From Comamonas denitrificans (lineage in GTDB: Bacteria; Pseudomonadota; Gammaproteobacteria; Burkholderiales; Burkholderiaceae_C): a DNA stretch of 64,000 nt. Position numbers and translations under genes: made by a program. The notes below the pieces were generated by a model. The model saw only the letters and a program-made list of their open reading frames with translations, made no database searches and was not told the origin of the DNA. The stretch lies in contig NZ_JAFNME010000004.1 of the NCBI RefSeq assembly GCF_017368815.1, positions 62,001-126,000 on the forward strand. Direction: 5' to 3'. Numbering within the stretch: the stretch's first letter is position 1; every line of letters begins with the position of its first letter. Shown here piece after piece: positions 1-16,430 of this stretch.

Positions 1-735
1 ATCCAGCCCCTCGCGCAGCTGGCGGCCAAATTTTTGGTTCATCACATCGTTGCTCAGGTAGGTGATGTGGCCAATCATGCGGGCAATGCGCAGCCCCCGC
101 GCCGGCACCACGCCATGCTGGTAGAAGTGGCCGCCGTGAAAATCCGGGTCGGTGACGATGGCCCGGCGCGCCACCTCGTTGAAGGCGATGTTCTCGGCCG
201 TCAGATTGGGCGCACTGGCCACCACCACGGCGTGGCGCATGCGCTCGGGGTACTGCAGCGTCCACGACTGCGCCTGCATGCCGCCCAGGCTGCCGCCCAG
301 CACCGCGGCCAGTTGCCCGATGCCCAGGCGGTCAAGCAGCCGGGCCTGGGCATTGACCCAGTCTTCTACCGTTACCACCGGAAAATCGGCACCGTACACC
401 GTGCCGGTGTCGGGGTTGATGTCTTTGGGCCCGGTGGAGCCAAAGCACGAGCCCAGGTTGTTCACACCAATAACGAAAAATTTGTTCGTATCCACGCTCT
501 TGCCCGGGCCGATCATGTTGTCCCACCAGCCCTCGCTTTTCTCCTCATTGGGGTACACCCCGGCAACGTGGTGCGAGGCGTTCAGGGCGTGGCAGACCAG
601 CACGGCATTGGATTTGTCCGCGTTGAGCTGGCCGTAGGTTTCGTACACCAACTGGTAATCCCGAATGCTGGCCCCGCTTTGCAGCGGCAGCACCTCGGGG
701 AAGTGCATGGTTTGGGGGGTGGCGATCAAAGACAT
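1..735 (-). CDS. metX: Homoserine O-acyltransferase MetX (3' end cut by window edge)
   Basis: MetX activates the hydroxyl of L-homoserine with an acyl group (acetyl or succinyl), the first committed step of methionine synthesis, in the cytoplasm. The 245 codons visible here start [12 protein letters not shown] and run open through base 1, so roughly the last third of a usual 375-residue protein lies outside the window. It has the alpha/beta-hydrolase fold signature GGSLGGMQ with the expected nucleophile Ser149, the [12 protein letters not shown] segment of the active-site pocket and the conserved [11 protein letters not shown] stretch. The catalytic Asp and His would be in the missing part. 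The chosen ATG has no Shine-Dalgarno sequence; it follows directly on the U-tract of a terminator, but the N-terminus matches the usual start of the family in this bacterial group. Acyl donor specificity (acetyl versus succinyl) cannot be decided from this part. Confidence 0.95.
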
Positions 736-769
736 AAAAAAACCCGGCATCGCTAAAAACGAGGCCGGG
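736..769 (-). terminator. Intrinsic terminator between SAM-II riboswitch and metX
   Basis: On the minus strand a stem CCCGGC/GCCGGG, continued by TCG/CGA beyond one mismatch, is followed by seven U residues that run straight into the metX ATG. Lying between the riboswitch and the gene, it looks like the expression platform of a transcription-attenuation switch rather than the end of another gene. Confidence 0.8.
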
Positions 770-795
770 GCGAAGGAAAAGAAAACATCGCGTCG

Positions 796-853
796 GACGG
801 GTCTTTAGCGGAATTTATAAAGCGCCCGCAAGCTGGTGCAAATCGGCGCGACT
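796..853 (-). promoter_or_regulatory. SAM-II (SAM-alpha) riboswitch upstream of metX
   Basis: Reading the minus strand from 851: GCGCC, then GATTTG, a short loop, GCTTGC, then GGCGC closing the P1 stem, a TTTATAAA joint and the GCTAAA box at 802-812. This is the order and spacing of the conserved SAM-II elements, a pseudoknotted aptamer that binds S-adenosylmethionine and represses methionine genes. It lies about 60 nt upstream of metX with a terminator between. The identification rests on the conserved blocks and the P1 pairing; the pseudoknot helix was not modelled. Confidence 0.88.
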
Positions 854-877
854 AGCTAGTAAAAACTAGGCGGGCCA

Positions 878-1450
878 TCATACTCCAAGCACCGGCGCCA
901 GCAAGGCCAGCGCCCCTAACACGGCAAAAATCGCGGCCGAGATGCCATGCACCAGCCGCAGCGGCACCCGGCGCACCAGCTTGTGGCCCAGCCACACCAC
1001 CGGCGCATTGGCCAGCAGCATGCCCAGCGTGGTGCCGATGACGACCCACACAAAGGCTTGGTACTGCGCAGCCAGCATGACGGTGGCCACCTGGGTTTTA
1101 TCGCCCATCTCGGCCAGGAAAAACGCCACCGTGGTGGTCAGCAGCACGCCCCAGCCGGGGTGCTCTTTGATGCCCGCATCGTCCAGTTTGTCGGGCACCA
1201 GCATCCATAGCGCCATGGCGATGAACGACAGGCCCAGCACCCAGCGCAGCATGTCTGGCCCCAGCCATTGCGTTATCCATACGCCCACGGCCCCGGCCAG
1301 GGCGTGGTTGGCCACGGTGGCGATCAAAATCCCCGCCACGATGGGCCACGGTTTTTGAAAGCGCGCGGCCAGCACCAGCGCCAGCAGCTGGGTTTTATCG
1401 CCCATCTCGGCCAGCGCCACAATCATTGTTGAAATAAGCAAAGCATCCAT
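878..1450 (-). CDS. UPF0016 (GDT1/TMEM165 family) membrane cation transporter
   Basis: A 190-residue integral membrane protein of the UPF0016 family, whose characterised bacterial members export manganese and whose eukaryotic relatives move Ca2+/Mn2+ with H+. The family hallmark E-x-G-D-K-T occurs twice, EMGDKT at residues 15-20 and again at 114-119, each inside a hydrophobic helix, so the protein is the usual tandem duplication of about six helices with the two acidic motifs facing the ion path. The ATG at 1450 (MDALLIS) gives the typical length; an ATG four codons upstream (MRALMDALL) is possible. It stands alone, divergent from the RNA-binding protein gene. Manganese export is inferred from the family; no manganese riboswitch (yybP-ykoY) was found upstream. 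Confidence 0.88.
   Translation of the reverse strand: MDALLISTMIVALAEMGDKTQLLALVLAARFQKPWPIVAGILIATVANHALAGAVGVWITQWLGPDMLRWVLGLSFIAMALWMLVPDKLDDAGIKEHPGWGVLLTTTVAFFLAEMGDKTQVATVMLAAQYQAFVWVVIGTTLGMLLANAPVVWLGHKLVRRVPLRLVHGISAAIFAVLGALALLAPVLGV

Positions 1451-14719: not shown

Positions 14720-16430
<1,711 letters not shown>

Follow-up and report, generated by a model that had tools for sequence, protein, structure and literature searches.

How is metX controlled at a locus where a transcription terminator ends right at the start codon? The window (the whole analysed stretch of 64,000 nucleotides from Comamonas denitrificans) holds on its minus strand the beginning of this gene, preceded by a leader that the earlier note had read as a SAM-II riboswitch coupled to a terminator. 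From sequence comparison and predicted folds, we consider it likely that this leader (859-736, minus strand) is a SAM-II-type switch that turns metX off in response to SAM, with its antiterminator in the loop and 5' half of the terminator. The genetic context is the following:

1-735, minus strand: metX, homoserine O-acyltransferase (NCBIfam NF047916 and NF001209), first 245 codons, the gene leaving the window
878-1450, minus strand: GDT1-family gene (Pfam PF01169, cation exporter) upstream of metX, its stop codon ending at 878
877-882, minus strand: candidate -10 element TATGAT of the metX leader, proposed from the sequence and its relatives and overlapping the GDT1-family stop codon

The window belongs to contig 34 of a 3.0-Mb genome, and its MetX fragment shares 97% identity with the one from an uncultured Comamonas. 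The TATGAT motif is likewise present in three other leaders (L039, L119 and L120), and a sigma-70 promoter scan of the window listed no promoter for the metX leader. An additional mini-hairpin, CUAG-UUUUUA-CUAG (856-869, minus strand), lies between the -10 box and the aptamer in this genome; GGC-CUUUUU-GCC occupies its place in the close relatives L039 and L119, and the spacer is shorter in L042 and L054. A manganese riboswitch was found above cut-off at the metX locus in 5 of 19 scanned relatives (L040, L050, L055, L058 and L129), and positions 1400-1760 of the window, beside metX, gave no match to it at E<=1.

The aptamer is composed of the following elements:

787-859, minus strand: SAM-II-type aptamer region, as aligned to RF00521 (28.9 bits, cut-off 36)
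822-849, minus strand: P1 hairpin of 5 bp (GCGCC 849-845 with GGCGC 826-822), enclosing GAUUUG 844-839 and GCUUGC 833-828
804-809, minus strand: GCUAAA box, which supplies the 3' strand of the pseudoknot P2 and, in the alternative predicted state, belongs to the antiterminator

The leader resembles SAM-II (SAM_alpha, RF00521; Corbino 2005, Barrick and Breaker 2007, as far as their accessible text goes) in having P1, the GAUUUG/GCUUGC/AAA/GCUAAA order and a methionine gene, here metX, downstream of the aptamer. Indeed, the blocks GAUUUG, GCUUGC, AUAAAU and GCUAAA occur in the window leader with the order and spacing of SAM-II. The SAM-II assignment of the earlier note thus stood for the blocks and the 5-bp P1 in their order, but not for the Rfam score, which is 28.9 bits against a gathering score of 36 bits for RF00521 (SAM_alpha); consistent with this score, a scan of the window at the Rfam gathering level reported no SAM family. 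The leader nevertheless matched RF00521 with an E-value of 1e-4 within 401 bases, and it is the best match of the whole 3.0-Mb genome (E 1.7e-4).

For comparison, 140 leaders were considered (the window and L009-L147), of which 134 could be parsed, 127 had a terminator by a stricter rule and 95 were unique. The alignment comprises 45 of the 66 leaders with a full loop match, 21 being left out (including L070, L088 and L107). In these 45 chosen leaders, P1 is paired in 225/225 cells with little variation, and the SAM-II blocks are all retained, a retention that the parsing pattern itself partly required, GCUAAA included. The core pseudoknot P2 (UUGC with GC-U-AA) is allowed by the sequence and invariant in the 45 leaders, partly through the block-based parsing, and covariation can therefore neither support nor refute it.

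In SAM-II, the bases following GCUAAA (often GG) pair with those preceding GCUUGC and form an extra helix beyond P2; this is the P2a of Huang and Lilley 2018, whose accessible text describes a length that differs among members. We took the register from the Rfam consensus. Of the two pairs it predicts, one forms in 5 and the other in 11 of the 45 Comamonad-type leaders (GAC, GAU or AAC after the box), as compared with 29 and 34 of the 40 leaders with other tails, counts that include two mis-parsed rows. The window leader has C-C at both pairs. Where present, the pairs are nearly invariant, which makes this a difference in presence and not covariation. The loss of the extra helix explains the low Rfam score and frees the tail for another use. 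The metX leader differs further from SAM-II in having GA(C/U) after GCUAAA instead of GAGG, and in a terminator that abuts the AUG; SAM-V, in the sources partly available, shares the same pseudoknot core and has a short extra helix. Because the Comamonad-type leaders are mostly devoid of the extra helix, and because 28.9 bits lies under the cut-off, we call the metX leader, on its sequence, a variant of SAM-II and do not file it under RF00521.

RF00521 matches were widespread in related genomes. At E<=0.01, they were found in 269 of 399 family genomes (84 above cut-off) and in 0/14 controls; the weak end of the 269 likely includes some metK rather than metX leaders (the best 30 loci were inspected). 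At the order level and E<=0.001, 88 of 200 genomes matched, 36 of them above cut-off, again with 0/14 controls. Within the genus, 52 of 53 genomes matched at E<=1, but so did 8 of 14 controls, so that this count alone is not evidence; none of the 53 was above cut-off. Likewise, no SAM_alpha was reported at the gathering level in any of the 19 Comamonadaceae-type loci scanned. A MetX relative is encoded at 30/30 of the best family loci and at 27/29 genus loci, the two exceptions (L137 and L147) deriving from metK regions. Taken at the sequence level, the relatedness of the aptamer to SAM-II is strong. A sub-threshold result in the Rfam SAM_alpha covariance search had been named beforehand as refuting; the result is indeed sub-threshold, and we did not take it as refuting because 269/399 family genomes match, against none of the 14 controls.

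The same scores bear on the nature of the ligand. The fold could have another ligand than SAM, such as SAH, methionine or homocysteine, as the sub-threshold genus scores (0/53 genomes above cut-off) and the lost extra helix might suggest; in addition, Leyn 2014 (PMC4239095) kept the element separate and, in the accessible part of its metXZ section, names no effector. We regard this as improbable: the leader retains GAUUUG, GCUUGC and GCUAAA, methionine genes are known to respond to SAM as their end-product signal, and the scores grade from the genus up to above-threshold SAM-II within the same family.

The element mentioned by Leyn 2014 (PMC4239095) is a metXZ element located upstream of metX in 10 of 11 Comamonadaceae genomes, with six conserved blocks, of which block 1 with 4 and block 2 with 6 make a pseudoknot, followed by a terminator. 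The metX leader corresponds to this description by its position upstream of metX in Comamonadaceae, its conserved blocks with that pairing and its downstream terminator. The Comamonad metX leader is thus very likely the metXZ element of Leyn, a correspondence drawn from the description rather than from the published alignment (Figure S2). That study set metXZ apart from SAM-II, reporting in its accessible text SAM_alpha only in Rhizobiales and Rhodobacterales; it did not relate metXZ to SAM-II, and the antiterminator it conjectured was a different one, with blocks 3 and 4 pairing to a terminator stem. In the open-licence literature searched, we found neither the equation of metXZ with SAM-II nor a covarying SAM-II antiterminator. 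If our reading is right, an orphan regulatory RNA would become a member of a named riboswitch class, and the failure of Rfam to report the metXZ RNA in Comamonads would be explained.

Between the aptamer and the gene lie the following elements:

743-769, minus strand: intrinsic terminator hairpin CCCGGCCUCGUUUUUAGCGAUGCCGGG, predicted stem of -16.5 kcal/mol
736-742, minus strand: U-tract of seven U, read from the sequence, abutting the start codon
742-745, minus strand: GGGU, a weak and putative Shine-Dalgarno-like sequence with which the terminator 3' arm ends

The coordinates given in the earlier note for the aptamer, the terminator and a complementarity between them (discussed below) proved exact. 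The intrinsic terminator is real as judged by sequence and predicted fold, and its U-tract touches the start codon as claimed, the seven U (742-736) being directly followed by the metX ATG (735-733, minus strand). We identified it from sequence and folding; a simple terminator scan of the window missed it, a failure that the mismatch in its stem probably explains. In the 45 chosen leaders, the terminator is paired in 91.6% of cells with compensatory changes, 14 cells being changed on both sides versus 3.6 in shuffles. It stands right before the start codon in most close relatives. Among 59 leaders examined, 56 gave a value for the terminator-to-start distance, three with an uncertain start: at most 10 nt in 34 (31 of them at 6-8), 11-20 in 17 and more than 20 in 5. 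In two Acidovorax leaders (L041 and L062), about 100 nt separate the U-tract from the metX ATG and the terminator does not abut the start.

A terminator between aptamer and gene is a feature of many SAM-II members in the sources partly accessible to us, Corbino 2005 placing it between P2 and the gene. The statement that SAM-II mostly masks the ribosome-binding site did not hold, as Huang and Lilley 2018, in the text available, call the SAM-II majority transcriptional and the crystallised metX SAM-II "a rare translational SAM-II". Transcriptional SAM-II is already in print, according to the accessible parts of Corbino 2005, Barrick and Breaker 2007, Scheuer 2022 on S. meliloti metZ, the Gluconobacter RNA-seq paper and Huang and Lilley 2018. 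In particular, the S. meliloti metZ and Gluconobacter oxydans SAM-II leaders (PMC9373788, PMC5756330) are predicted to undergo SAM-dependent termination like that proposed here, and short leader RNA or high leader coverage is reported for them in the same excerpts. For metA, Scheuer 2022 was unable to predict an antiterminator driven by SAM-II; the Gluconobacter paper (PMC5756330) refers to a terminator/antiterminator prediction made computationally, and no covariation-based antiterminator is described in the accessible text of these papers, in contrast with the metX leader.

Barrick and Breaker 2007, in the part available, assigned control of both transcription and translation to hairpins lying within 10 nt of the start. 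The claim that the metX leader has no ribosome-binding site was too strong: six bases, a usable distance, separate the weak GGGU (745-742) in the terminator 3' arm from the ATG. The last 22 bases pair with the presumed anti-Shine-Dalgarno sequence at -4.3 kcal/mol, two distant pairs included. From its sequence and position, GGGU may be in use as a ribosome-binding site. One could then see metX under a mainly translational switch, in which the hairpin next to the AUG hides GGGU and premature termination is secondary. Such a switch would suit both the location of GGGU within the 3' arm and the hairpin-to-start distance of 6-8 nt in 31 of the 56 leaders; it seems unlikely given that a strong U-tract and a GC stem are typical of a terminator, that GGGU is weak, and that the start lies 11-101 nt away in 22 of the 56 leaders (three of them with an uncertain start).

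The remaining point is the strand that would prevent the terminator from closing. According to the earlier note, the aptamer 3' end AAAGACCCG (806-798, minus strand) pairs over nine bases, one of them G-U, with CGGGUUUUU (746-738) in the terminator 3' arm and U-tract; the complementarity exists exactly as described and gives a duplex of -10.3 kcal/mol. However, many relatives have in their terminator loop GUUUUUAGCG, the complement of CGCUAAAGAC in the aptamer, as seen by side-by-side comparison, which points to other partners:

801-810, minus strand: putative antiterminator 5' strand CGCUAAAGAC, supported in part by covariation and by predicted folds
751-760, minus strand: putative antiterminator 3' strand GUUUUUAGCG, i.e. 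the terminator loop and inner stem bases, supported by comparison and predicted folds
794-796, minus strand: CCG, which would lengthen the antiterminator through pairs with CGG 767-765 in the terminator 5' arm, from the predicted nascent fold

A full complement of GCUAAA (6/6) lies inside the hairpin in 56 of the 95 unique leaders versus 3.3% of shuffled interiors, and one of at least 5/6 in 74 of the 95 versus 34%. Two neighbours of the box, which played no part in finding the pairing register, covary with the hairpin: position +1 is paired in 69/74 leaders (permutation mean 61.7) and position +3 in 60/74 (permutation mean 43.2), values attained in 0/5,000 permutations each. Position +2 was at chance level (677/5,000 permutations), and neither +4 to +6 nor -1 to -3 covaried above chance. 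Matched pairs are found in L076 (GCUAAAUC / GAUUUGGC), L090 (GCUAAAC / GUUUAGC), L118 (GCUAAAU / AUUUAGC) and L070 (GCUAAAGAG / CUCUUUGGC).

The aptamer strand also prefers its own terminator to those of other species. For 46 representatives, the energies were -16.12 and -13.30 kcal/mol, respectively (0/20,000 permutations). A held-out set was drawn from 60 fetches, of which 9 had no terminator and 4 were already present in the first set; its 31 representatives, more than 7 edits from every earlier leader, gave -19.54 versus -17.02 kcal/mol (0/20,000). All these permutation tests ignore common descent, so that their significance is inflated. Since the nine bases after GCUAAA taken alone show weak partner specificity (494/20,000 permutations, Wilcoxon 0.15), the pairing claim rests on the box and its neighbours. 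In the alignment of 45 leaders chosen for a full loop match, the covariation score of the loop pairing is 0.115 versus 0.091 in shuffles (1/500), and only one pair changed on both sides, which is not unusual (97/500 shuffles reach that); with some rows misaligned and the rows selected, we use this test as support only.

For the pairing with the 3' arm and U-tract, the same alignment gave 0 cells changed on both sides and a covariation score of 0.039, equal to that of shuffles; its large share of paired cells is due to A-U pairing with the U-tract. Its strong part requires CCCG or CUCG after GA. With G-U allowed, 18 of the 95 unique leaders can form it, 4 having given no value; among the 28 genus leaders parsed, 13 can do so (5 through CCCG and 8 through CUCG) and 15 cannot. 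Its partner strand is moreover made last, when the terminator could already have closed. Constrained folds of the leader, which the earlier note had proposed as a check, return the terminator in a mimic of the SAM-bound state (-30.3 kcal/mol), and place the 3'-arm pairing, when forced, at -31.3 kcal/mol and the loop antiterminator, likewise forced, at -33.4 kcal/mol for the whole leader. As the main mechanism, the 3'-arm/U-tract antiterminator was rejected on its poor conservation, absence of covariation and lower stability, and we now judge it very unlikely. The switch reading as a whole stands, by comparison and prediction, for the SAM-II-type aptamer, the terminator, metX and GCUAAA as the shared strand, but not for that particular antiterminator; in our verdict, the idea was right and the partner strand wrong.

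Within the window alone, the loop pairing would not be remarkable. Ranked by duplex energy with the aptamer strand, the metX terminator comes 7th of 67 terminator-like hairpins and is one of 4 having the 6/6 GCUAAA complement; such complementarity in one GC-rich leader is not rare. This rank, together with the sequence that related terminators share by descent, would fit a constitutive terminator whose loop complementarity is inherited baggage without any switch. The covarying partners and the own-over-foreign excess in two leader sets make that explanation highly improbable. It is the comparison with relatives, and this only, that lifts the putative loop pairing above chance, and the same comparison gives no lift to the 3'-arm pairing. 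Across the leaders, this comparison brings out P1, the SAM-II blocks, a conserved terminator and an alternative pairing of GCUAAA with the terminator loop and 5' half.

Folding predictions for the nascent RNA agree with the loop/5'-half antiterminator. In 46 leaders, the GCUAAA strand is predicted to make 6.19 bp with its own hairpin versus 4.08 in chimeras (0/20,000); contacts of at least 4 bp are predicted in 38 of them, and fewer in 8, of which L010, L025, L075 and L114 have nearly none. When the window RNA ends 0-6 bases past the loop pairing, the antiterminator has a predicted probability of 1.00 and consists of ten pairs (810-801 with 760-751), then G798-C763, then CCG 796-794 with CGG 767-765; P1 can coexist with it. 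Terminator and antiterminator are mutually exclusive by prediction, as they share bases 751-753, 760, 763 and 765-767. For the full-length leader, the predicted minimum is the terminator (-36.8 kcal/mol), and the antiterminator has a probability of 0.01 at equilibrium. Because the finished terminator wins at equilibrium, the model needs kinetic control, and the predicted folding course is the one usually drawn for attenuators of that type.

We therefore propose, from sequence and modelling, that the metX leader binds SAM and terminates transcription in a SAM-dependent manner. At low SAM, the polymerase would make the aptamer first and then the terminator 5' arm and loop; GCUAAAGAC (with CCG 796-794) would pair with GUUUUUAGCG (with CGG 767-765) before the 3' arm exists, the terminator could not close and metX would be read. 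With ample SAM, GCUAAA would be locked with GCUUGC and SAM in the pseudoknot, leaving the terminator loop free; the terminator would close and transcription would end before the AUG. The terminator 3' arm probably also hides the weak GGGU, so that read-through RNA would meet a further brake at translation. P2a is mostly absent from Comamonad-type leaders, and the bases that could have formed it would serve the antiterminator instead. SAM-II would thereby gain a concrete and testable antiterminator supported by covariation, none having been mapped in this way in the accessible parts of the literature found.

Beyond metX, the analysis suggests a companion RNA on metK, which encodes the enzyme that makes SAM. 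The second-best RF00521 match of the genome (23.9 bits) lies directly before metK (TIGR01034):

1446-1574 of locus L002, contig 7 of the same genome, minus strand: SAM-II-like metK leader, strongly conserved, below the Rfam cut-off

Relatives of this leader occur among loci L208-L222, L228-L257 and L268-L287. A model built from 14 genus leaders (R1) matched, at E<=0.001, 172 of 250 family genomes and 104 of 141 genera, the weakest of which may be metX leaders; MetK was present at all 50 loci taken from this search (30 best and 20 weaker, down to E 2.7e-7). Of the 70 metK-search loci, 6 without a MetK match, all from weak RF00521 matches, were left out. Among 64 unique metK leaders, GCUAAAGCGUUCGCC is present in 63, P1 is fully paired in 63, and a TAnnnT box lies 5-6 nt before P1 in 54. 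A downstream partner resembling GGC(A/G)(A/G)CGC, variable but pairing, forms 8/8 pairs in 56/64 leaders versus 2.5% of shuffled tails. A pairing of CGUUCGCC in the leader with the metK start codons was tried and rejected: it is fully paired in 51/64, but coding changes such as ATGGCCAATGAC go unanswered in the leader, for which reason the downstream partner is preferred. At 20 more distant metK loci, the Rfam scores are at most 19.9 bits (2/20 at E<=1), so that we treat the kinship of the metK leader with SAM-II as a lead and not as a test passed. The accessible part of Leyn 2014 (PMC4239095) gives no known metK regulator in beta-proteobacteria, and we found no SAM-II-like metK element for this group in the open-licence literature searched.

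Tentatively, and with doubt slightly outweighing belief, we suggest that Comamonads and their relatives have a two-switch SAM regulon of SAM-II descent that Rfam misses. Its metX member would be a trimmed SAM-II in which one strand both contacts SAM and acts in antitermination, pairing with the loop and 5' arm of a terminator that also masks the ribosome-binding site; its metK member would be a sister RNA with a translational platform. If true, one hairpin would control both transcription and translation of metX.

Elsewhere in the window, a candidate anti-hemB sRNA (Burkholderia RNA 7) at 15831-15906 (plus strand) scored 60.6 bits and passes its Rfam cut-off.
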